Assembly (NCBI GenBank): GCA_902780935.1
Contig: CACZHP010000003.1
Coordinates: 108,141 to 167,893, forward strand
Source: an uncultured Bacteroidia bacterium
Lineage (GTDB): Bacteria; Bacteroidota; Bacteroidia; Bacteroidales; UBA932
DNA length: 59,753 nt
Direction: 5' to 3'
A program made the position numbers and the translations under genes. Under the pieces are notes generated by a model. It made no database searches and was not told where the DNA came from. It was given only the letters and a program-made list of their open reading frames with translations. Shown here piece by piece: positions 5,720-39,274 of this stretch; position 1 is the stretch's first letter, and each line of letters begins with the position of its first letter.

Positions 5720-7030
5720 TTATTCGAGCATGTGGAGTTCGGACTTGACGAAGGTGGCTTCTTCCTTGGCGAAGTTGTAGTTCTTGGTGCCTTCCTTGCC
5801 GAGTTTCAGGTATTTCTCGTAGTATTGAAGGGCGGTTTTGTATTCCTTTCTGATCCTGTGGCAGTAGCCGATGGAGACAAGCAGGGATATGTCTTCGGGG
5901 TTGTATTTGTAAGCGGCCTCAAAGTGGGGGAGAGCCTTTGCCATGTCGGATTTGGCATTGTAGGCCCGACCGAGCCCGCTGTGGATCTTGTACATAAGGA
6001 CCGGATCTGGCTCCGCCATATCAAACGCTTTCCCGAACATCTCGATCGCTTTCGCGGTGTTGTCGATGATGACCCCATCCTTTTTGCGAAACTGGATGTC
6101 TCTGGCCAGGGAGATGGCGTAGTTGACGGCCAATTTCACGTCTGAGGAATCAATCTGCCAGGCGGCTTCAAAGCAGTCTTGCGCCACCTCAAAACGGTTG
6201 AGAGCCAAGGCGTTGAGCCCGGAATAATACATCGTTCCGTACGACTCGTCCCCGTCCTTTCTGAGTTGTTTGAAGACCTCGTAGGCGTTGTCCTGATCTT
6301 CTTTGAGGTAGTAGGCGACCCCAAGGATCTGAGTCAAAGTCAGGTTGTCCTCGATTTCCTCGATGAACCCTTTGGCGAGGCTGATGGTCCCGTCATAATC
6401 CTTCTTTCCCAGGAGGATGTTTGCGATACTGACTGCGGTGTTAGGATTGGAAGGGTTGAGCCTCAATGATTTCCGGTAATATGCCAGGGATGAGTCAACT
6501 TGCCCCATTTTAAGCAGGCTGGCGCCAATGAGCGATAGGATCGAGGGGATCGAATCCTTCGCGCAGATCGCTTTCCCTTCTTCGGCGCAACCTCGGAAGT
6601 CGTTGACTTTGAATAATAGCGACGCTTTCTGGATCGAGAAATACAGGTTATCCGGATGCTGCATGGAAAGGATGCTGTAAAGGCCCAGAGCGTCATCCAA
6701 TCTGCCTGAGAGGACATGGCAGTCTGCCAGTTCGCCGGCCACCTCCACATCCAGCGCCCCGGGTTTCATGACCGAGGCCAGGGTCTCGGCCGCAGCGTCA
6801 TAGCGCAGCATTTTCTTCTGGCACCTCGCTTTTTGGAGCGATAGGTCCCTAATCTCTGACGCATCTTTGGTACTTTCCAAAGCCTTATCCAGCAGTCCGA
6901 TAGCCTTTGAATATTCATAGCGGGCAATGGCTTCCCTGGCCTCGGCTAGAGGTGATGCGTCCTGGGCTTTTAGAGTCACTGCCAGCGACATGAGCGTCAC
7001 CGTCAGAAGCAGTTTAGCTGTAGTTTTCAT
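5720..7030 (-). CDS. Exported TPR protein downstream of BlaI/M56 pair
   Basis: A 436-residue protein with an N-terminal signal peptide (hydrophobic LLLTVTLMSLAVTL, cleavage likely after KAQ) followed by tetratricopeptide repeats along nearly all of its length, for example SLAYYRKSLRLNPSNPNTAVSIANILL and the late GLGRAYNAKSDMAKALPHFEAA. No catalytic domain is visible. It probably sits in the periplasm as a protein-protein scaffold. The ATG overlaps the stop of the M56 peptidase gene (ATGA), so it is the third gene of the blaI-M56-TPR operon. Its exact role is unknown. Confidence 0.85.
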   Translation of the reverse strand: MKTTAKLLLTVTLMSLAVTLKAQDASPLAEAREAIARYEYSKAIGLLDKALESTKDASEIRDLSLQKARCQKKMLRYDAAAETLASVMKPGALDVEVAGELADCHVLSGRLDDALGLYSILSMQHPDNLYFSIQKASLLFKVNDFRGCAEEGKAICAKDSIPSILSLIGASLLKMGQVDSSLAYYRKSLRLNPSNPNTAVSIANILLGKKDYDGTISLAKGFIEEIEDNLTLTQILGVAYYLKEDQDNAYEVFKQLRKDGDESYGTMYYSGLNALALNRFEVAQDCFEAAWQIDSSDVKLAVNYAISLARDIQFRKKDGVIIDNTAKAIEMFGKAFDMAEPDPVLMYKIHSGLGRAYNAKSDMAKALPHFEAAYKYNPEDISLLVSIGYCHRIRKEYKTALQYYEKYLKLGKEGTKNYNFAKEEATFVKSELHMLE

Positions 7031-26686: not shown

Positions 26687-28336
26687 ATGAAACAGTTCTA
26701 CCTTTCCATCGCTGCCTTGGCGCTGGCGGTTGTCACCTTCGTGTCTTGCGGCGACAAACAAGTCTCTCTCCAGAGAGTAGACCCGCTTGAGAAACTGCTG
26801 CCCGAGACCTCCTGGTCGCATCCTTATTCCGAGATCGAGGATGTCGCGGCCGGCGAGCACGCCACTTTCCAGTTCGCTCTCAGGAGTCCTGTGGACCTTG
26901 AGGGATTGAGCCTGTCTTTTGAGGCCCTTAAGGATGAGGCCGGGAATAAGATCGAATCGGTCACGACCGGTTTTGTGGATTTCATCCATGTCGGACGCAC
27001 AACTCCGGATCCGGGCAGGGACGCGATCAGGTCTATCTCTGGAATGTATCCGGACGCTATCATAGATGACGCCACGGATTGGGAAGTTCCCGGAGGAAAG
27101 ACCCAGCCTATCTGGGTCAGCGTGGCCGTGCCGAAGGATGCCGCTCCGGGGGTCTATAAGGGGAAAGTCCTTGTCAAAGGCAAGGGCGTCAAACTGAGCG
27201 GCGAGATAGGGGTCAAGGTCTATCCTGTTGTCCTTGAGGAACCTACCCTCTGGGTCACCAACTGGTTCAATGCCGGGGAGAGGGCCCTGAAGCATTTCAA
27301 TCCGGATGCCGAGTTGTATTCGGAGGAGCATTGGGACTATGTGAGGGCTTTGGCGAAGATAATGAAGGATAGCTACCAGAACACTATCCTTGTCTCGGTC
27401 GGCCTGATCGAGTCCAAGGCCGAAGGGGACAAGTGGAGTTTCGATTTCACCAATTTTGACAAGGAGGTGGAGATATTCCAGGAGGCCGGAGTCCTCAAGA
27501 AACTTGAGGTAGGACATATCGGGGGCCGTGTCGGCTTGTGGAACAGCCCGTTCGGAGTCAATGTGCCGGGGGTGGACAAAAAACTGCCCATCGAGGATCC
27601 CGTCGCCCGGAACTATTACTCACAGTTCATCCCCGCCTTCGTCGCTCATCTTAAGGAAAAGGGTTGGTATTCAATATATTGCCAGCACATCGCCGACGAG
27701 CCGGCTTCTGACAACTACGAGTCCTATGTGGCGATCGCCAAATTTTTCAAGCAGTACGCCCCTGATGCTCCGATCATCGAGGCCTGCCATTCCCACAACC
27801 TTGCGGACATAGTCGACATCTGGGTGCCGCAGTTGAACTTCTATGCCGACGGATATTCCTTCTATAAAGAGAGACAGGCCGCCGGAGATGAGGTCTGGTT
27901 CTACACCTGCCTCGCTCCTCAAGGCAACTACGCCAACCGTTTCCTGGAGCAGCCTCTTCTGAAGACCCGTCTGCTTCATTGGATCAATTTCCGTTTCGGT
28001 GCGACCGGTTATCTCCACTGGGGACTCAACCAATGGAGGGGAGATGATCCCGCCTACGAATCCACCTCCATCAACCTTGAAGGCGGGAATATCCTTCCGG
28101 GTGGCGACAGCTGGATCATCTATCCCGGAGACAAGAAGCTTTACGGCTCCATCCGCCTCGAGGCTATGAGGGATGGTATAGCGGACTACACTCTATTGCA
28201 GATGCTCGCCCGCAAGGACGAGGCCCTTGCCAAGGAGATCTGCCGCCAGAACGTCTATAACTGGACCACTTACGACATGTCTACCCTTCATTTCCGCCTT
28301 GCCCGCCGCCAGATCCTGGAAGCCTTGTCGAAGTGA
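26687..28336 (+). CDS. Lipoprotein glycoside-hydrolase-like protein (DUF4091, GH123-related)
   Basis: 549 residues with a lipoprotein signal (LALAVVTFVSC). An N-terminal beta-sandwich (about 30-190) is followed by a TIM-barrel-like part: EPTLWVTNWFNAGERALK, CQHIADEPASDNYESY and the C-terminal DUF4091 block RLLHWINFRFGATGYLHWGLNQW then YGSIRLEAMRDGIADYTLL. The vicinal Asp337-Glu338 in ADEPA sits where GH123 N-acetyl-beta-galactosaminidases have their catalytic Asp-Glu pair. It likely acts on host or dietary glycans at the cell surface; the substrate is not known. It begins 23 nt after recJ. Confidence 0.85.
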   Translation: MKQFYLSIAALALAVVTFVSCGDKQVSLQRVDPLEKLLPETSWSHPYSEIEDVAAGEHATFQFALRSPVDLEGLSLSFEALKDEAGNKIESVTTGFVDFIHVGRTTPDPGRDAIRSISGMYPDAIIDDATDWEVPGGKTQPIWVSVAVPKDAAPGVYKGKVLVKGKGVKLSGEIGVKVYPVVLEEPTLWVTNWFNAGERALKHFNPDAELYSEEHWDYVRALAKIMKDSYQNTILVSVGLIESKAEGDKWSFDFTNFDKEVEIFQEAGVLKKLEVGHIGGRVGLWNSPFGVNVPGVDKKLPIEDPVARNYYSQFIPAFVAHLKEKGWYSIYCQHIADEPASDNYESYVAIAKFFKQYAPDAPIIEACHSHNLADIVDIWVPQLNFYADGYSFYKERQAAGDEVWFYTCLAPQGNYANRFLEQPLLKTRLLHWINFRFGATGYLHWGLNQWRGDDPAYESTSINLEGGNILPGGDSWIIYPGDKKLYGSIRLEAMRDGIADYTLLQMLARKDEALAKEICRQNVYNWTTYDMSTLHFRLARRQILEALSK

Positions 28337-28344
28337 TCTTTATG

Positions 28345-28418
28345 TTGCGCGGCCTGACAGCGCCTTGATAGCGATCCGCCAAATCGACACCGCGACCCTT
28401 TGCGGAAATGCTGCGTAA
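28345..28418 (+). pseudogene. Remnant of a deleted copy of the TPR regulator gene
   Basis: 28348-28407 matches 30385-30444 inside the intact TPR regulator almost base for base (peptide ERPDSALIAIRQIDT versus RPDSALIAIRQIDTATLCG). It then jumps to CTGCGTAA, the last codons and stop of the regulator (31903-31910). About 1.45 kb of the gene is missing between these points. The sequence after the stop also follows the region downstream of the intact gene. Confidence 0.85.
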
Positions 28419-28506
28419 GCTATTGATAGTCAAGAAGATAAGTAGTAAGAAAGCAAGCGCCGCACAACCGCTTGACAGTCAAATAGTTACAATGACAGGA
28501 AATCTA

Positions 28507-28532
28507 TTCTTACGGTAAAAACGTGAGAATTA
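28507..28532. promoter_or_regulatory. Conserved dyad upstream of serpin 1
   Basis: ATTCTTACG and CGTGAGAAT flank the 7-nt GTAAAAA; the arms differ at one position, which can still pair as G-U in RNA. All 26 nt are identical at 31998-32023 upstream of serpin 2, while flanking sequence has drifted. It could be an operator for the TPR regulator or an RNA hairpin. Confidence 0.55.
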
Positions 28533-28537
28533 CCCTA

Positions 28538-28572
28538 AAACGCCGCTACAAGCACTTGTGGTGACGTTTTTA
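28538..28572 (+). terminator. Probable terminator left from the TPR regulator copy
   Basis: AAAACGCCGCTACAAG pairs imperfectly with CTTGTGGTGACGTTTT around a 2-nt loop, ending in five T. The equivalent at 32029-32063 follows the intact regulator gene, so this one is a terminator without its gene. Confidence 0.55.
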
Positions 28573-28632
28573 TTCTCTGTTCTTCTTACGCTTTTTCGTC
28601 CCTATAATACGGCCAGTTACAAGCGGATTCGC

Positions 28633-28640
28633 GATATTTG
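28633..28640 (+). promoter_or_regulatory. Candidate -7 box upstream of the small peptide and serpin 1
   Basis: GATATTTG differs from TAnnTTTG at the first base; the aligned site upstream of serpin 2 (32125-32132) is the perfect TATATTTG. No clear -33 TTG is present in either copy. Confidence 0.45.
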
Positions 28641-28667
28641 CGTTTACTGTTAAATCGTTTCAAAAAT

Positions 28668-28838
28668 ATGAGTTTGAAGAATACACTTCTCATCGCTCTG
28701 ACCGCATTGTTCTTCGTTTCAGTCCAGACGCCCTTGGATGCGAAGAATGCCGCTGTCGTCGATACTGTTATTGTCATAGAACCTCTTCCGGGCGGAAGTA
28801 TGGGGGCGAATTTGATGTCTAATTATTTCGTTTTATAA
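28668..28838 (+). CDS. Small exported peptide upstream of serpin 1
   Basis: 56 codons. The N-terminus is a good signal peptide (KNTLLIALTALFFVSVQ, cleavage possibly near LDAKN), followed by a short mature part, VVDTVIVIEPLPGGSMGAN and a few more residues. It lies about 28 nt after a promoter-like box and 84 nt before serpin 1. The region is absent from the second copy upstream of serpin 2, where the flanking sequences are conserved but joined by about 55 unrelated nt. It may be a real secreted peptide or the remains of a longer gene. No family is recognised. Confidence 0.45.
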   Translation: MSLKNTLLIALTALFFVSVQTPLDAKNAAVVDTVIVIEPLPGGSMGANLMSNYFVL

Positions 28839-28922
28839 TGCAAGAGTTCTTGTTTTCGGGATTATATTAAAAGAAAACCTGTTGGTTGTGTCTTGTATTG
28901 GATTATTAAATTATTAAGAGTT

Positions 28923-30179
28923 ATGAGAAACGGAAAACTATTACCCATTATCATCACAGCTTTGTCCGTGACATTTTTCTTGTCCTCCTGCGAGAAGGAT
29001 GAGAACCCCTCGGACAAGCTGATCGAGCGGAAGGACTTCGTGCTGACGCGGTCCGAGATGGACTTCGTCCAGGAGAACAACGGCTTTGCGCTTGAGTTAT
29101 TCAAGCGGGTCTCCGACATGGAGAAAGGAAAGAGCACGGTGATCTCCCCCTTGAGTGTCACGATGGACTTCGGTATGGTGAGTAACGGGGCGGCCGGTAA
29201 GACCAGGGACGAGATCAGCGATGTGCTCGGCTACAAGGACGGATCCGTAAAGGGCCTGAACTCTTTCTGCGAGTCGATGCTTGAGCAGTCCTCAAAGGTG
29301 GATCCCTCCACTACCATAGAGCTTGGTAACGCCTCCGTGATCAACAAGAACCGTATCCCGCTGAAAGATTCATTCTCCAAGGCCATAAAGTCCTCCTATG
29401 ACGCCGAGGTTGTCTACAAGGACTTCGGGAAGGACGACGTGAAGGGCCTGGTCAATAAATGGAGCGACAAGAAGACCCACGGCATGATCCCCTCGATTCT
29501 GGAACAGCAGCCAAAGTCCGACAGTTACGCCTATTTCATGAACGCGGTGTATTTCAAGGGGATATGGTCGGAGAAGTTCGACAAGGCCGACACCAGGGAC
29601 GAGGAGTTCAAACTTGAGGACGGAACCCGCTCGAAGGTTCGCATGATGTGGCAGAAGCATAAATTCAATTATGGTGGTATTCCTGGCGTCTGCGACGCCC
29701 TGTGTCTCCCTTACGGCAACGAGGCGTACAGGATGGTGATTCTGCTCCCTCAAGATGGAAAGACGATAGAAGACGTGAAAAGCGGTCTCGACACGGAGTC
29801 ATGGAGCGGTTTGATAAACAACATGAACAAGAGGGAAGTTGACGTGAAAATACCCGTGTTCGAGACCTCCACCGATCTCCTTCACCTTAAGGATGTTCTC
29901 TTTGAGATGGGCATACGGGACGCATTCTCAATGGGTTCCGCCGATTTCTCGAATATGACAAACGAGAAGGTCCATATCGATGATGTTCTTCACAAGGCCC
30001 GGATTAAGGTCGACGAGCAGGGCTCCGAGGCAGCGGCGGTGACAGTGGTCGGGATGGTTATGTCCGCCGGTTCTGGATTCAAGGCACCCGAGTTCCACGC
30101 CGACCATCCGTTCGTCTACGCCATCACCGAGGTCAGCACCGGAGCCATATTCTTCATCGGGCAGTACACCGGCAAGTGA
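28923..30179 (+). CDS. Serpin 1, lipoprotein serine-protease inhibitor
   Basis: 418 residues. The start MRNGKLLPIIITALSVTFF leads to the lipobox SSC. The serpin fold is complete: STVISPLSVTMDFGMVSNGAAG, YFMNAVYFKGIWSEKFD, and the C-terminal FHADHPFVYAITEVSTGAIFFIGQ. The hinge of the reactive loop, DEQGSEAAAVTVV (P17 Glu365), has the small residues needed for loop insertion, so it is likely an active inhibitor. By alignment with alpha-1-antitrypsin the scissile bond falls at or next to Met-Ser in GMVMSAGS, suggesting an elastase- or chymotrypsin-like target. Exported and lipid-anchored, like the Tannerella serpin miropin. I use 28923 and not the upstream in-frame Met because it aligns with serpin 2. 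Confidence 0.93.
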   Translation: MRNGKLLPIIITALSVTFFLSSCEKDENPSDKLIERKDFVLTRSEMDFVQENNGFALELFKRVSDMEKGKSTVISPLSVTMDFGMVSNGAAGKTRDEISDVLGYKDGSVKGLNSFCESMLEQSSKVDPSTTIELGNASVINKNRIPLKDSFSKAIKSSYDAEVVYKDFGKDDVKGLVNKWSDKKTHGMIPSILEQQPKSDSYAYFMNAVYFKGIWSEKFDKADTRDEEFKLEDGTRSKVRMMWQKHKFNYGGIPGVCDALCLPYGNEAYRMVILLPQDGKTIEDVKSGLDTESWSGLINNMNKREVDVKIPVFETSTDLLHLKDVLFEMGIRDAFSMGSADFSNMTNEKVHIDDVLHKARIKVDEQGSEAAAVTVVGMVMSAGSGFKAPEFHADHPFVYAITEVSTGAIFFIGQYTGK

Positions 30180-30211
30180 TGATTATTCGACAGAAAAAAT
30201 CAGCATTATAA

Positions 30212-30237
30212 GAGCATGACGCGATGTCCACGGCGGC
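30212..30237 (-). pseudogene. Fragment of the aroK 3' end between serpin 1 and the TPR regulator
   Basis: GAGCATGAC, two extra bases, then GATGTCCACGGCGGC matches GAGCGTGAC-GATGTCCACGGCGGC at 33562-33585, the 3' end of aroK just beyond serpin 2. Homology ends in the next few bases. It marks the junction of a tandem duplication. Confidence 0.7.
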
Positions 30238-30257
30238 TGGTTATTAATCTCAGTACT

Positions 30258-31910
30258 ATGCGAAACCACGATGGGAGGAAATGTTTTGTCTTTATCATCA
30301 TATCTGCTGTCGTTCTTCTCTTAGGGTCATGCGACAGGAGGAGGACGGCATTTGAGCTGGCCGACATAGAATCCTACATCAATGAGCGGCCTGACAGCGC
30401 CTTGATTGCGATCCGCCAAATCGACACCTCAACCCTTTGCGGAAGGGCCGAGAGAGCGAAGTACGCCTTGCTCCATGCGGCGGCGCTTGACAAGAATTAC
30501 ATCGACACGGCTGACACCCGGGTTGTACAGCCTGCCGTGGACTGGTACGAGCGCCACGGCAAACCAGAAGACAGGCTTAAGGCTTATATGTACCTGGGGA
30601 CTGAGCAACTCAATGGTGGGGAGTACAATAAGGCGATAGTATCGTTCTACAAAGCCCGCACTTCAGCGTCCGGTGTGGAAGACAAGAACCTCTTGGGAGT
30701 TTTGTGCTCCAAGATAGCCGACACATATACAGGTACTATGGACTACGCTCAGGCTTCGAGTTATATCGATGAGTCGATAGAGTACTTCAGGCAGTGTGGA
30801 AGAAAGGACCAAGAAGCCATCGAGCTTCTACGGAAATCGTTTAATTTGACACGAAGGAGATTGTGGGATCAAGCTGACTCCTGCTTCAAGGAGCTCTTAT
30901 CTATCAAATCACTTGAAAAAGGTCTCAGAAACAGAGCCTTGGTGGGATATGGGATGTTCCTTTTGAACAACCCGGATCCGGATGAGAAGCTTGCCCTGTC
31001 TATACTATCATCAGCCATTGAAGAAGGAGGAAAGTTGGAAAAACTCTCGCAAGTCTACGCTTACGCATACCTCCTGAAAACGCAGGGCATGGAAACCGAG
31101 AGCGAGGCATTGATGAGGATGGCTGATCGGTTTAAGACAAAAGACGAGTACTCGTATCATTACTGGAAATATCGGGAATACCTTAAATCTGGGGACATGA
31201 TTGCCGCACACAGCAGTTTGTGGGCAGCCATGAATGTGATGGACTCAATCCGGATAAGAAGCTACGAGGGCTCGGCGGCTAACTCACAAAGGTCATTCCT
31301 TGAGTTGACCGTGTCTGCGCAAGAATTGAGAATTAGAGCGCGAAAACGAGAGATAATCATCATATCATTACTCTGTCTGGTCATCGCATTGGCCTCCTCT
31401 GTCGTTTATCAGCTTAACAAAGCCGCTCTCCAGAGAAAAAAGGAAGAGAAAGAACGAATGGAAATGTTGGTCGAAAGGCTTGAAGAACAAGTCAAAGACC
31501 TGAATAATGGGAATAGGCAAAAGGCCGCCTTCTCCTTCCTTGGCGAAATCTATGAGGAAGCCTACCGCACTGGAAAGTCTTCTGATAACCTGACGAAGGT
31601 GATCCAATCAAAAATCGGCGACCTTAGGTCCGATCCGGCAGCGCAAAAGAATTTTGAGGCGTTGGTGGACAATAAGATGGATGGATTGATGAGCCGATTC
31701 CGGAAGGATTGTCCGGATTTGTCAGACTCGGACTACCGGATGTCCAGCTACTATTTCGCTGGCTTTGACAATACCACAGTCATGATCATCATGGGAATAG
31801 CATCCTTGGAGAATACTCGTTCAAGGAAAAGCTATTTGAGGAAAAAATTGTCCGAGAGATACGGCAAGATCGGTGACCTTTACTCCTCGATTATCGGAGG
31901 AGTTGCGTAA
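30258..31910 (+). CDS. Membrane-anchored TPR protein with C-terminal helix-turn-helix-like domain, putative regulator
   Basis: 550 residues. Lipoprotein or anchor start (IIISAVVLLLGSC), then a periplasmic TPR region (about 25-355; for example LKAYMYLGTEQLNGGEYNKAIVSFYKA). A transmembrane helix (about 372-392, IIIISLLCLVIALASSVVY) leads into a coiled coil (KKEEKERMEMLVERLEEQVKDL) and a cytoplasmic tail. The tail, DLSDSDYRMSSYYFAGFDNTTVMIIMGI followed by RSRKSYLRKKLSERYG, looks like the LuxR-type DNA-binding domain of Bacteroidota TPR regulators, somewhat degenerate. A membrane-spanning sensor that regulates the flanking serpins is my inference. The Met at 30258 is chosen because the upstream open frame runs through the aroK fragment. 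Confidence 0.78.
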   Translation: MRNHDGRKCFVFIIISAVVLLLGSCDRRRTAFELADIESYINERPDSALIAIRQIDTSTLCGRAERAKYALLHAAALDKNYIDTADTRVVQPAVDWYERHGKPEDRLKAYMYLGTEQLNGGEYNKAIVSFYKARTSASGVEDKNLLGVLCSKIADTYTGTMDYAQASSYIDESIEYFRQCGRKDQEAIELLRKSFNLTRRRLWDQADSCFKELLSIKSLEKGLRNRALVGYGMFLLNNPDPDEKLALSILSSAIEEGGKLEKLSQVYAYAYLLKTQGMETESEALMRMADRFKTKDEYSYHYWKYREYLKSGDMIAAHSSLWAAMNVMDSIRIRSYEGSAANSQRSFLELTVSAQELRIRARKREIIIISLLCLVIALASSVVYQLNKAALQRKKEEKERMEMLVERLEEQVKDLNNGNRQKAAFSFLGEIYEEAYRTGKSSDNLTKVIQSKIGDLRSDPAAQKNFEALVDNKMDGLMSRFRKDCPDLSDSDYRMSSYYFAGFDNTTVMIIMGIASLENTRSRKSYLRKKLSERYGKIGDLYSSIIGGVA

Positions 31911-31997
31911 TCTATTGATTGTCAAGGAGATAAGCCGTGAGAAAACAACTGCTACGCAACTATTTGACGGTTAAGTAGTTACAATGGCAAGAAGGCG

Positions 31998-32023
31998 ATT
32001 CTTACGGTAAAAACGTGAGAATT
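31998..32023. promoter_or_regulatory. Conserved dyad upstream of serpin 2
   Basis: This is the second copy of the 26-nt dyad found at 28507-28532, base for base identical. It lies about 90 nt after the TPR regulator stop and 100 nt before the -7 box at 32125. Confidence 0.55.
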
Positions 32024-32028
32024 GCCCT

Positions 32029-32063
32029 AAAATGCCTTTACAAACACTTGTAGTGACGTTTTT
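32029..32063 (+). terminator. Probable terminator of the TPR regulator gene
   Basis: AAAATGCC...ACAA pairs with TTGTAGTGACGTTTT and ends in five T. Pairing is weaker than in the copy at 28538-28572. The 344-nt gap between the regulator and serpin 2 otherwise holds the dyad, this hairpin and the serpin promoter; no further gene was seen. Confidence 0.5.
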
Positions 32064-32124
32064 GTGTTCTGTTCTTCTTACGTTTTTCGTTCCAATGAAT
32101 ATGGTCTGTTACAATCGGGTTCGC

Positions 32125-32132
32125 TATATTTG
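32125..32132 (+). promoter_or_regulatory. -7 box of the serpin 2 promoter
   Basis: TATATTTG matches the Bacteroidota -7 consensus exactly; no clear TTG lies 20 nt upstream. Transcription would start near 32138, giving a leader of about 115 nt before the serpin 2 ATG at 32255. Confidence 0.6.
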
Positions 32133-32254
32133 CGTATACTATTTGGACAAGTCAGCTGAATTTATTATTATCGAGAAATACTTTCCTGGCGCATGCAAGA
32201 TTTCATGTTTTTGGGATTTTACATATTGTATTGGATTATTTAGTTACAATCAAA

Positions 32255-33553
32255 ATGAGAAACGGAAAACTTTTACCTTTTATCATCACAGCATTGTCCG
32301 TGACTTTTTTCTTGTTCTCCTGCGAGAAGGCAGAGAAGGTCTCCGATGGCGGTGAGGAACAGCCAGAGGCAGAGGTTAATAATATAGAGAATAGCGTGAC
32401 GCTGCCGGAGACCCGGCTGTCGTTGACGGAGGAGCAGATGAGAAATATCTCTCCCGGGAACGAGTTCTCTTTCCGCTTGTTCAAAACGGTCCATGATAAA
32501 GCGGAATCTGGCATCGTGCTCAGCCCCCTTAGTGTCGAGTTCGCGCTCGGGATGGTCTGCAATTATGTGGACTGCGGTGAGGAGCTGTGCCAGATGCTCG
32601 GTCTTGAGGGGAAGGATATAGGTGTGGTCAACAATTATTTTCAAACTCTCATTGGTGATTTGACGGGAGGTGACGCCGCCGGCCTGAAGCTCGCGGACGC
32701 CGTGATGAGGGACATCAGAGGGTTTCCCTTTAAGGAGGACTTCATCGGGACTCTGAAGGATTACTACAACGCTGAGTATCAAACCATCGAGGCCTTGCCA
32801 TTGGCTGATCTTCCCGTCGGGGAGAGGCCTGAGGACTTATGGGTCAAGGAGAAGACTGACGGGATGATCGACTCCGCTCCATGGCCGATCCTGCCAGCAG
32901 AGGCGTCCATTTTCAATGCCATCTGCTTCAACGGAGAATGGGTACACAAGTTTTTGGAGGATGCTACTGGCGATTATGAATTCATCAAGGATGATAAGAC
33001 GTTCATTCCTGTCAAGATGATGTGGCAGACATGTGACTCCACCTACTTCTATAAAGGGCAGGGCTTCACATCGATCAGTCTCCCGATGAGCGACGGGGCT
33101 TATCTGTTGAGCATCTTGCTACCTGACGAGGGCAAGGATCTCAAAACTGTGCTGTCAGGGCTTAACTCGGAGTCCTGGGAGGGGTTGAGGAGCGGGATGT
33201 CCTATAAGAAAGTCACGATGGGCATTCCAAGATTCAGGGCCGTCTACTCCGAGGAGGAGCTATTCAACCTCCTCGACGAGAACTTCAGGAAAGCGTTCAT
33301 CGAAGAGAATTCCCGGATGCTGAAGAATGATCCTGAGACTTACGTGATTAATAGCATCGCCCAAAAGGCCGCAATTGAGATCGATGAGAACGGGGCGAAG
33401 GCGGCGGCTGTTACCCAAGTGATAATGGTTGGCTCACCACTCCATGATGATCCAGATAAGATAGAGGTCTTTGTCGCCAACCATCCTTTCGTGTACACCA
33501 TCTCCGAAACCGGCTCGGGGCTGGTCTTGTTCCTCGGAACCTACGAGGGATAA
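32255..33553 (+). CDS. Serpin 2, lipoprotein serine-protease inhibitor
   Basis: 432 residues. The export signal MRNGKLLPFIITALSVTFF is almost identical to serpin 1, with the lipobox FSC. Serpin blocks: SGIVLSPLSVEFALGMV, SIFNAICFNGEWVHKF, FVANHPFVYTISETGSGLVLFLG. The mature N-terminus is longer, with an acidic stretch (SDGGEEQPEAEVNN). The reactive loop hinge is DENGAKAAAVTQV (P17 Glu378): Lys replaces the usual acidic P13, but P12-P9 are still small. The loop then reads IMVGSPLHDDPDKIEV, quite unlike serpin 1, with the scissile bond near Gly-Ser or Ser-Pro. Probably an inhibitor of different specificity. Its stop is 2 nt from the aroK stop on the other strand. Confidence 0.92.
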   Translation: MRNGKLLPFIITALSVTFFLFSCEKAEKVSDGGEEQPEAEVNNIENSVTLPETRLSLTEEQMRNISPGNEFSFRLFKTVHDKAESGIVLSPLSVEFALGMVCNYVDCGEELCQMLGLEGKDIGVVNNYFQTLIGDLTGGDAAGLKLADAVMRDIRGFPFKEDFIGTLKDYYNAEYQTIEALPLADLPVGERPEDLWVKEKTDGMIDSAPWPILPAEASIFNAICFNGEWVHKFLEDATGDYEFIKDDKTFIPVKMMWQTCDSTYFYKGQGFTSISLPMSDGAYLLSILLPDEGKDLKTVLSGLNSESWEGLRSGMSYKKVTMGIPRFRAVYSEEELFNLLDENFRKAFIEENSRMLKNDPETYVINSIAQKAAIEIDENGAKAAAVTQVIMVGSPLHDDPDKIEVFVANHPFVYTISETGSGLVLFLGTYEG

Positions 33554-33555
33554 TA

Positions 33556-34080
33556 TCACATGAGCGTGACGATGTCCACGGCGGCGGCGAGGTAATCGTC
33601 GCCGTCGACGTTTATTATGTGCTGGGCGGTCTTCTCGTAGATGGGGCTCCGGGTGGCCATCAGTTCCTCAACCCGTGAGCGGAGGCTCTTGCCGCCTTTT
33701 AGCATCGGGCGGTCGCCCGGCCAGGTTTCGAGGTTATGGACGAGAGTTCCGATGGAGGCCTTAAGGTAGAAGCAGGTCGTGTCCCGTCGTATCATCCTGC
33801 GGCAGGCCTCTGTTGTGACAGTGCCTCCTCCGAGGGAAAGGATGTACGAGGCTCCGGTCAAATCGCCTGTCATGAATATGTCCTCCAAAGCGGAAAGTTC
33901 CATATTGCGGAAAGCCGCTTCTCCTTCTGATTCAAATATTTCCGGAATCGCGCGTCCGCTCATGGCCTCGATGTAGGAATCGAGGTCGATCAGCTCCATT
34001 GAGGGAAGCAGCTTCGCCAGCTCTTTGCCGACGCTGCTTTTCCCGCTACCCATAAAGCCTATGAGGGATATGTGTCCCAT
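33556..34080 (-). CDS. aroK: Shikimate kinase
   Basis: 174 residues. Walker A is IGFMGSGKSSVGKEL; the shikimate site includes LIDLDSYIE, EGEAAFRNMEL, LSLGGGTV and the lid Arg in GDRPML. It phosphorylates shikimate in the aromatic pathway. Start MGHISLIGFMGSGK; it begins 6 nt after the parC stop, so it may be the end of the rluB-era-parC message. Confidence 0.95.
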   Translation of the reverse strand: MGHISLIGFMGSGKSSVGKELAKLLPSMELIDLDSYIEAMSGRAIPEIFESEGEAAFRNMELSALEDIFMTGDLTGASYILSLGGGTVTTEACRRMIRRDTTCFYLKASIGTLVHNLETWPGDRPMLKGGKSLRSRVEELMATRSPIYEKTAQHIINVDGDDYLAAAVDIVTLM

Positions 34081-37813: not shown

Positions 37814-39274
37814 TTAGACATAGGCCCCCATCCTGAGGACGTTGACCTCGCCCTCACTGAGGTATCTCCACTCGCCCTTCTTGAGCCCCTTCTTAGTGAG
37901 GCCGGCGAAGTAAACCCTGTCAAGGGCTTTGACGGTGTAGCCGAGGCTCTCGAATATCCTGCGGACTATGCGGTTCTTCCCGGAGTGGATCTCGATACCG
38001 AGCTTGCGGTGGTCGCCAGCATCGATGTATTCGAGCTCATCAGCTTTGATCACGCCGTCATTGAGTTCAAGACCCTCGACCAATATTTTCTCCTTGTCAG
38101 CCTCGTCCAAAGCTTTGTCGAGGATGACCTGGTAGATCTTCTTCTTGTTGAAAGACGGGTGTGTCAGCTGCTCGGCGATCTCGCCGTCATTTGTGAACAT
38201 AAGCACACCGGTAGTGTTCTTGTCCAGCCTTCCGACAGGGAATACCCTTGCTGAGCAGCCCTTTATGAGATCCATGACGGTCTTGTCGGCATGAGGGTCG
38301 CTGGCACTGGTCACGAAGCCCTTGGGCTTATTCATGACAATGTACACCTTCTCCTCTCCCTTGAGCCTCTCTCCGTTGAAACGGATGTCGTCCTTCAGGA
38401 CATTCACTTTCGTCCCAAGCTCGGTCACTACCTCACCGTTGACGGTGACGACTCCGGCCTGGATCAGGGTGTCGGCCTCGCGGCGGGAACATACACCAGA
38501 GTTGGCTATGAACTTGTTGAGGCGGATCTCCTCCTTGATCGGTGTGGGGACAGTGTCGTTATCAGAGAAAGCCTGATTGTCAATCTGGGGCTTCCTGGAA
38601 AGCATCTGGTTGATTCCGGCCTCGTCAGTATTGGTGAAATGAGGGCCACTCTTGCGGGCGGGTTTCCTGGGAGCGGGCTTTGAGAATCCACCCCTGTTGT
38701 TGTCTCTGGAACCGTAGGAAGGACGTCCCTCTCCGTATCTGGGACGGCTCTCGCCATAACGCTGAGGTCTATCTTCACTGAATCTGGGCCTGTCCTCTCC
38801 GTACTTGGGGCGGCTATCGCTCCTCTGGGGACGGTCATTATTGTAGCGGGGACGGTCGTTGCCAAAACGCGGCCTGTCATTGTTGTAGCGGGGACGGTCG
38901 CTACCGTAGTGGGGCCTGTCCTCACCGTACCTGGGGCTTCCCTCACTCCTTTGGGGACGGTCGCTGCCGTAACGCGGACGGTCACTGCCATAGCGGGGCT
39001 TGTCCTCGCTGTACCTCGGCCTGTCCTCACCATACCTGGGACGGCTCTGGCCATAAGAACGTCTCTCTCCACCCTGGCCATAGGCTGGGCGTCCGGTCCT
39101 GTTCGAGTTGCCTTCAGAATAATTCCTGTGATTGTTGTCGCTGTACGATCCGACTTTCCTCCTTGGCCTTAGCCTGCGGCCTTCGGCTGAATAGTTGCTT
39201 GCGGATCCATCATTCCTCGCGTAATCCCTACGCTCCTCGTGGTTCTCTTGACCACCATTAAATTTTTCTTCCAT
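37814..39274 (-). CDS. rluB: 23S rRNA pseudouridine synthase (RluB/RsuA family) with repetitive N-terminal extension
   Basis: 486 residues. The C-terminal half is a standard RsuA-family enzyme: S4 domain IRLNKFIANSGVCSRREAD, catalytic Asp in FPVGRLDKNTTGVL, and HSGKNRIVRRIFESLGYTV. The first 240 residues are a disordered, highly basic extension with about 18 RPRYGxD-like units (residues about 76-190). Such extensions occur in Bacteroidota RluB but vary in length; RNA or ribosome contact is an inference. The start MEEKFNGG at 39274 is chosen over an in-frame Met at 39292. Confidence 0.9.
   Translation of the reverse strand: MEEKFNGGQENHEERRDYARNDGSASNYSAEGRRLRPRRKVGSYSDNNHRNYSEGNSNRTGRPAYGQGGERRSYGQSRPRYGEDRPRYSEDKPRYGSDRPRYGSDRPQRSEGSPRYGEDRPHYGSDRPRYNNDRPRFGNDRPRYNNDRPQRSDSRPKYGEDRPRFSEDRPQRYGESRPRYGEGRPSYGSRDNNRGGFSKPAPRKPARKSGPHFTNTDEAGINQMLSRKPQIDNQAFSDNDTVPTPIKEEIRLNKFIANSGVCSRREADTLIQAGVVTVNGEVVTELGTKVNVLKDDIRFNGERLKGEEKVYIVMNKPKGFVTSASDPHADKTVMDLIKGCSARVFPVGRLDKNTTGVLMFTNDGEIAEQLTHPSFNKKKIYQVILDKALDEADKEKILVEGLELNDGVIKADELEYIDAGDHRKLGIEIHSGKNRIVRRIFESLGYTVKALDRVYFAGLTKKGLKKGEWRYLSEGEVNVLRMGAYV
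38705..39049 (-). repeat. Minisatellite-like coding repeats in the rluB N-terminus
   Basis: Repeated units of about 18-21 nt encode RPRYGED, RPRYGSD, RPRYNND and similar. They are related but not identical at the DNA level (GGGACGGTC and GGCCTGTC type variants), consistent with slippage and drift. Likely to vary in number between strains. Confidence 0.75.

Follow-up and report, generated by a model that had tools for sequence, protein, structure and literature searches.

A two-serpin locus of a Bacteroidales genome as a probable mosaic, with a resident serpin behind the control front of a protease-inhibitor operon

Introduction

How do two serpin genes of different ancestry come to stand behind near-copies of one control region? 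This question is raised by a 59,753-nucleotide (nt) stretch of contig CACZHP010000003.1 (assembly GCA_902780935.1, positions 108,141 to 167,893) from an uncultured Bacteroidia bacterium of the UBA932 lineage, hereafter called the window, in which serpin 1 (S1) and serpin 2 (S2) flank the intact gene of a presumed membrane regulator. An initial annotation of the sequence read the locus as a tandem duplication of a regulator-serpin unit ending in the 3' end of aroK, followed by deletion of one regulator. The comparisons described here favor another history: recombination has probably assembled the locus, as a mosaic, around a regulated protease-inhibitor operon, with S1 captured by the control front of the S2 operon. 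Coordinates are those of the window; the left and right copies of the control region are called A and B, and the genome of the window is G000.

Results

Repeated control regions precede dissimilar serpins

Self-comparison of the window bore out the repeated flanks, their order and their annotated coordinates. The two intergenic regions, whose lack of significant identity would have counted against the duplication, were 81.7% identical over 241 columns from the regulator stop through dyad, terminator and promoter (28412-28651 vs 31904-32143, E = 4e-62). Further matches were found at 28838-28863 vs 32193-32218 (88%) and over the start and signal peptide (28893-29005 vs 32226-32337, 85% over 113 nt, E = 4e-30). 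The regulator remnant ahead of S1 was also present, not as a single piece but as two stubs, of which the first shares 58 of 62 nt with codons 42-62 of the intact gene. Deletion of one regulator was upheld, as was the resulting arrangement: both serpins, each with the same operator-like sites, stand behind a single intact regulator gene.

28346..28407, + strand: regulator A stub 1 (codons 42-62), 93.5% identical to 30383-30444
28412..28418, + strand: regulator A stub 2 (tail of the final codons, stop included), aligned to 31904-31910
28507..28529, no strand: copy A operator-like dyad TTCTTACG-N7-CGTGAGAA, from the repeat comparison
28537..28573, + strand: copy A terminator-like hairpin and T run, read in the sequence
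28583..28590, no strand: copy A direct half-site TTCTTACG, spaced 76 nt from the first TTCTTACG, from the repeat comparison
28633..28640, + strand: copy A -7-like element GATATTTG, read in the sequence
28923..28988, + strand: S1 signal peptide up to the lipobox, of the cassette type
28989..30179, + strand: S1 mature part, of the resident type (Pfam Serpin, 1e-97)
31999..32021, no strand: copy B operator-like dyad, from the repeat comparison
32029..32064, + strand: copy B terminator-like hairpin; the stretch between the half-sites folds at -9.0 kcal/mol
32075..32082, no strand: copy B direct half-site, from the repeat comparison
32125..32132, + strand: copy B -7-like element TATATTTG, read in the sequence
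32255..33553, + strand: S2, lipoprotein signal and serpin body (Pfam Serpin, 3.9e-55), with orthologs of 97% and 95% amino acid (aa) identity in genomes G251 and G042

The Bacteroidota -7 consensus is TAnnTTTG.

The serpins themselves did not follow their flanks. Both are members of PF00079 (328 bits for S1 and 188 bits for S2, cut-off 27), and their signal regions are 87% identical over 92 nt, ending in similar lipoboxes (FFLSSC and FFLFSC; Cys23 is invariant among 17 aligned serpins, signal peptide and Cys being read by eye). The bodies, on the other hand, share only 35% aa identity, and, once the first 17 nt of each mature part are set aside, the sole nucleotide self-match at E <= 0.01 was 33 nt long. 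In a tree of 49 rows, S1 and S2 fell on opposite sides of a branch with 100/99 support. S1 was sister to the serpin of genome G049 (100/99) in a clade of 23 rows, no other of which was labelled regulator-linked, whereas the S2 clade held 14 rows, 11 of them regulator-linked and the remaining three being the orthologs in G042 and G251 and a row near a contig end (G202_C52). The labels were assigned by hand from locus lists, some rows having short flanks only, and four long rows (G017_deg, L042, L210 and L162) are placed unsurely. Plain duplication and divergence of the serpins was rejected on their identity and tree position; of the annotated tandem duplication, the repeated flanks stand and the doubling of the serpins is not supported.

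S1 joins a foreign front at the lipobox

The search for related genomes with one serpin between the same neighbors, which the initial annotation had called for, found three. In G049 the order is GH123 - S1 - aroK, with 140 nt from GH123 to S1, another promoter, another signal peptide and no regulator match. The other two carry S2, again with no regulator match at the S2 locus: G042 has an inverted GH123 gene, a 707-aa open reading frame (ORF; glycosidase-like by eye), S2 and aroK, and G251 has GH123, a 136-aa ORF, an aroK fragment, a gene for a C10 cysteine protease, S2 and aroK. The 136-aa ORF (L120:4933-5343) is encoded on the opposite strand and, lying between GH123 and the aroK fragment, takes the place occupied by S1 in G049 and the window.

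Homology of S1 to the G049 serpin starts at 28988, at the lipobox, and continues at 82% nucleotide identity, whereas upstream of that point the signal peptides are 22% identical over 18 aligned codons and a blastn comparison of the module with the G049 locus gave no match. Homology between copies A and B ends at 29005, 17 nt past that start, and at the join the 10-mer CTGCGAGAAG is common to G049 S1 and S2. Since S1 matches G049 from the lipobox on and the S2 front up to 29005, it bears a foreign promoter, foreign operator-like sites and a foreign signal peptide. The signal-peptide region of copy B is 97.7% identical to G251, 90.9% to G042 and 84% to copy A, and an extra stretch is common to A and G042 but absent from B and G251; either the doubling therefore preceded the spread of S2, or A is a separate import. 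Stub 1 of regulator A is closest to B, the next best match among the fetched loci being 82%. The A front matched 4 of 400 genus genomes, namely its own and three with only the S2-type spacer/signal region or a regulator stretch.

Synonymous divergence (dS) between S1 and its G049 counterpart was 0.78, near the values of the neighboring GH123 (1.0) and aroK (0.99), as for a resident gene. For S2 it was 0.05 against G251 and 0.12 against G042, far below that of the adjacent aroK (0.64 and 0.35, respectively), as for a gene that moved between species. These values suggest that S1 is the older, resident serpin and that S2 is a newer one that travels between species. Both evolve under constraint, the ratio of nonsynonymous to synonymous divergence (dN/dS) being 0.14 for S1 and 0.23 and 0.31 for S2 (the value of 0.31 rests on a dS of 0.05). 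Elsewhere in the genus, tandem serpin pairs with no regulator match were seen at L135 (G044:C4) and L139 (G316:C120), so that neighboring serpin copies arose more than once.

Remnants point to a larger gene run that recurs in other genomes

Three remnants, listed here with the two neighboring genes, bear on the unit from which the front came.

28668..28838, + strand: truncated DUF3244-like gene, first part (56 aa, comprising the signal peptide and the beginning of the mature part); tblastn to L127, 47.5% over 40 aa, E = 5e-8, and to L137, 36% over 42 aa, E = 5e-5; also aligned
30213..30240 (approximate), - strand: aroK 3' end fragment
32135..32164, + strand: relic of a C10 protease 3' end, 30 nt; homology to G251 starts at 32135 (L120:3165), within the C10 ORF at L120:3136-4629
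26687..28336, + strand: left neighbor, GH123-type gene (Pfam PF13320, 6.8e-53; 89.5% aa identity in L121), also left of S1 in G049
33556..34080, - strand: right neighbor, aroK, shikimate kinase (Pfam SKI, 3.1e-35)

The small ORF noted ahead of S1 exists, but it is the first third of a DUF3244-like gene and not a gene of its own; its homology to the start of such genes, by tblastn and alignment, rules out an independent new gene. It stops ahead of the Ig-like domain and thus holds no DUF3244 domain. A full-length relative in L127 scored 14.1 bits for DUF3244 by Pfam, below the cut-off of 25, and two other relatives gave no score; the structure model of the L127 protein matched the DUF3244 structure 3d33 (E = 2.5e-5). 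Likewise, the window holds no C10 protease-inhibitor operon, as its only trace of a C10 gene is the relic between promoter B and S2. C10 is present in the G251, G130, G402 and G202 loci (Pfam C10 with Spi-prodomain in L120, L127 and L137, C10 alone in L130). The aroK fragment contains an exact 16-mer of aroK and is short by itself; at the matching place G251 has 97 nt of the aroK 3' end (86.6%). The aroK fragment proposed to end the duplicated unit is thus seen, while the ancestral unit would have been larger than annotated, with a DUF3244-like gene and a C10 protease.

We compiled 78 regulator rows, which count some places twice (L074=L156, L078=L146, L080=L208, L070=L157) and many of which are truncated at a contig end. 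A small secreted protein, mostly of 110-160 aa, came next after the regulator in 38 of them, C10 matches followed in 18 and serpins in 17 (one a 78-aa piece, one the window). The full order of regulator, DUF3244-like, C10 and serpin was found in 6 rows (L140, L142, L143, L158, L162 and L210). In 61 genus genomes, 11 of 83 serpin matches lay within 5 kb of a regulator match against 0.85 expected, 7 of 54 C10 matches lay near a regulator (0.65 expected) and 3 of 83 serpins near C10 (0.43 expected), showing that the linkage of regulator and serpin is recurrent and not peculiar to this locus. These counts were compiled by hand within the genus, exclude regulator matches weaker than about 3e-11 and the window stub, and merge or drop second pieces of split matches. 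The other 72 of 83 serpin matches had no regulator link, which counts against any general rule.

A second regulator-serpin pair lies about 56 kb away on the same contig (L068, G000:C3:77797-80964), its regulator 47% and its serpin 43% identical to those of the window. The single C10 match of G000 (114 of 194 positions) is spread over two short ORFs; it belongs to this second locus (G000:C3:76086-76436, L068 about 6051-6942) and looks broken. In L081 (G046:C250) and L254 (G563:C1), a regulator and DUF3244-like pair precedes a C39-peptidase-like ABC exporter and a TonB-like protein, with radical-SAM-like ORFs in L081 (all named by eye), so that the cargo there is peptide export instead of a protease. 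At L078:8629-9765 (G017:C9) the regulator is followed by a serpin-like protein of 378 aa with a very long branch that has lost the reactive-loop hinge and is possibly non-inhibitory.

The presumed regulator and its operator-like sites

30258..31910, + strand: intact tetratricopeptide repeat (TPR) membrane protein, presumed regulator, 550 aa; AlphaFold2 model with mean predicted local distance difference test (pLDDT) of 83.5 and predicted template modelling score (pTM) of 0.60

In this protein a signal-like N-terminus, in which Ser-Cys is nearly invariant, is followed by TPR helices, a hydrophobic stretch at about 358-380 (membrane segment assigned by eye), a coiled coil and a helical C-terminus, which the model renders as a helical C-terminal domain. 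The helix-turn-helix (HTH) label of the initial annotation was not sustained, as Pfam identified no HTH in the regulator or in seven C-terminal regions. BT_3442 of Bacteroides thetaiotaomicron (NF053779) is a distant full-length match (82 bits, residues 12-532), and the regulator is not a member of that family, whose curated cut-off is 940 bits. According to PMC2954219, BT_3442 adjoins BT_3441 in a lipoprotein cluster with MACPF proteins; BT_3441 is homologous to the 3d33 protein, and the cargo of BT_3442 is MACPF, whereas that of the window is serpin. Records with related regulators come mostly from uncultured Bacteroidales of ruminant gut samples.

The best Foldseek matches of the TPR part were the Rap/NprR proteins of the RRNPP group (E = 2.4e-5, TM 0.40/0.57). 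This likeness is a general TPR likeness, since Ctr9, LGN, KLC1 and others match too. An RRNPP regulator is a cytosolic TPR sensor with an N-terminal effector domain and a paired peptide. Unlike Rap and NprR, the window protein has a signal-like N-terminal segment, a membrane segment and its helical, presumed DNA-binding domain at the C-terminal end, and it does not qualify as an RRNPP member.

Both control regions lie 3' of regulator sequence and hold the dyad, the terminator-like hairpin and a third TTCTTACG. This dyad is part of a wider design: a dyad and one direct half-site 74-76 nt on, around a terminator. An exact 7-mer repeat at 74-76 nt was found in 19 of 52 dissimilar regulator loci (49 other spacing windows: mean 3.2, maximum 8), compared with 2/49 upstream of regulators, 1/58 and 3/27 in coding sequence and 2/58 further downstream. 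In 16 of the 19 loci the sequence that separates the half-sites has a folding energy of -9 kcal/mol or below, a count that has no control set. Dyad and half-site occurred together in 15 of 51 loci (38 other spacing windows: mean 2.0, maximum 6; upstream 3/49, coding 0/58, further downstream 1/58). Regulator rows of other families in the order had repeats of 9-12 nt at 76-77 nt in 3 of 13 cases (L254, L256 and L257; no spacing control). The letters of the half-site vary by locus, so that spacing and not sequence is constant, and the TTCTTACG pair occurs in its own genome at these two places only. One operator sequence common to all loci was rejected, as fixed boxes gave at least two boxes in just 8 of 66 loci. 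We infer that dyad plus half-site is the candidate operator of the regulator.

Hinges and reactive loops of the two serpins

Both serpins have an inhibitory-type hinge (EQGSEAAAV in S1, ENGAKAAAV in S2), comparable to the inhibitory consensus, which is like ExGTEAAAA at P17-P9 (PMC8233489). With Ala at P14, Lys at P13 and Pro at the aligned P1', S2 is the weaker inhibitory case. Miropin of Tannerella forsythia (PDB 5ncs), a Bacteroidota serpin with the same hinge and loop register, was the best PDB match of both (6.4e-74 for S1; 2.3e-28 for S2, nearly tied with tengpin 2pee at 5.1e-28). In the miropin register, P4-P2' reads M-V-M-S-A-G in S1 and M-V-G-S-P-L in S2; unlike miropin, the aligned P2-P1-P1' are M-S-A and G-S-P, respectively. 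According to PMC8201313, miropin uses several bonds of its loop and inhibits serine and some cysteine peptidases.

Change has been faster in the S1 loop than in the S1 body. Against G049, 6 of 18 loop positions were conserved, the body being 79% conserved (binomial 3e-5), and against G055 4 of 20, with a body value of 61% (3e-4). The S2 loop shows no such acceleration, 18 of 19 positions being kept against both G042 and G251.

Discussion

From the homologies, break points, relics and tree, an order of events and a function may be reconstructed. The old state would have been GH123 - S1 - aroK, as in G049, with S1 having its own promoter and signal peptide. An operon of the TPR membrane regulator, DUF3244-like secreted protein, C10 cysteine protease and S2 would then have arrived at the aroK 3' end, leaving an aroK fragment on its left; G251 keeps the aroK fragment, C10 and S2 of this proposed operon. 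Next, a copy of the operon front (regulator end, operator-like sites, promoter, DUF3244-like start and signal peptide) may have been placed before S1 and fused to it at the lipobox, where the shared 10-mer lies. Finally, each copy would have lost its DUF3244-like and C10 genes by deletions that ended at different points, and regulator A would have been reduced to stubs. As judged from sequence, the regulator, with a putative periplasmic TPR sensor, a transmembrane helix and a cytoplasmic DNA-binding end, might switch both serpins via the private sites, and the two would be surface lipoproteins trapping different proteases by suicide inhibition.

Doubling of the regulator-serpin-aroK end in place, with loss of one regulator and divergence of the serpins, would account for flanks repeated on both sides in the same order, but it is very unlikely, as it leaves serpin bodies at 35% aa beside flanks at 82-85% nt, is contradicted by the tree as it stands and does not explain S1 alone at the same locus in G049. 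A stronger rival, though still an improbable one, is that cassettes A and B were acquired at different times from separate strains, so that no duplication took place within the genome. B is indeed nearer to G251 and G042 than to A, A shares its extra stretch with G042, and the low dS of S2 shows that transfers happen; yet A and B have the same half-site, paired nowhere else in the genome, the stub is closest to B among the fetched loci, and no donor was found in 400 genus genomes. Joining of loci of two strains by the assembler is the most remote of the explanations: the assembly is fragmented, but the copies differ by 15-18% and the partial aroK fragment is independently matched in G251.

A different kind of alternative concerns function, namely that the C10 protease has the serpins as its cognate immunity proteins, those left being relics on their way out. 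C10 and serpin do stand in one gene run, pairs of C10 and inhibitor genes are described for Bacteroides in PMC2873492 and PMC3462683, and miropin acts as an inhibitor of some cysteine peptidases, as mentioned above. We nevertheless regard this as unlikely, about as much so as separate imports, because the frames are open and under constraint (dN/dS 0.14-0.31) although the only C10 match of the genome is broken, and a second serpin type was gained, not lost. For the same reason of constraint beside a broken C10, foreign gut proteases are more likely as present targets than a C10 enzyme of the genome itself.

Several observations weigh against the mosaic and its regulatory interpretation. The divergence of A and B predates the spread of S2, so A is possibly a separate import; no intermediate state of front capture by S1 was found in the 400 genus genomes; the aroK fragment in the window is short; and the assembly is in 82 contigs and was used without reads. 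Six regulator-linked serpins (L142, L210, G027_C48, G045_C1, L144 and L162) lie outside the S2 side of the tree. As for regulation, no Pfam HTH or other DNA-binding domain was found in the whole regulator or in the C-terminal 100-110 aa of seven regulators, 33 of 52 loci lack the exact repeat, either because they have diverged or because the reading does not hold there, and the two rows above the BT3442-family cut-off (both L249) had no repeat at 72-78 nt (no spacing control). Finally, most serine proteases do not cleave before Pro, and the Pro at P1' of S2 in the miropin register speaks against cleavage at that bond.

Among known systems, the bfp-bfi and btp-bti loci of Bacteroides, in which a C10 protease is co-transcribed with a small exported putative inhibitor (PMC2873492 and PMC3462683), come closest to the recurrent gene run. 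In the latter source the end of btiZ (BT2221) and the C10 gene btpZ downstream of it are 14 bp apart; PMC10434189 lists BT2221 as DUF3244. Unlike these loci, the related gene run adds a serpin and the TPR regulator, and the window is without an intact protease and DUF3244-like gene; compared with miropin, the window has two serpins behind near-copies of one control region. The word 'serpin' does not occur in the main texts of PMC2873492 and PMC3462683, and the accessible part of PMC7863939 has nothing on serpins with C10. Among the matches listed, no paper on serpins in regulator/DUF3244/C10 gene runs was found, a weak absence with most subscription journals outside the search, and PMC2954219 alone names a protein like BT_3442, which it describes as a TPR protein.

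The repeat is thus readable as regulatory capture, in which a resident gene swapped its promoter, operator-like sites and export signal together with a join at the lipobox. Bacterial serpins are linked to a recurrent gene run with a C10 cysteine protease and a DUF3244-like protein, giving testable enzyme-inhibitor pairs, and the sites, fixed in spacing and private to each locus, open a large unassigned group of TPR membrane proteins to direct tests of function. More tentatively, membrane-spanning TPR one-component regulators may form a wide family in Bacteroidales, and many of them may have a private operator (inverted repeat and direct half-site 74-77 nt on) around their own terminator. With a half-site specific to each locus and an unchanging geometry, the cassette front could be a portable control unit able to capture any surface protein by recombination at the lipobox, as proposed for S1. 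The TPR sensor, whose best fold matches are the peptide-sensing Rap/NprR proteins, may read peptides such as proteolysis products.

Elsewhere in the window, at 38760-39051, a gene that is pseudouridine synthase-like by eye has a repetitive Arg/Asp/Tyr-rich N-terminal extension, which gave several shifted matches with G042.

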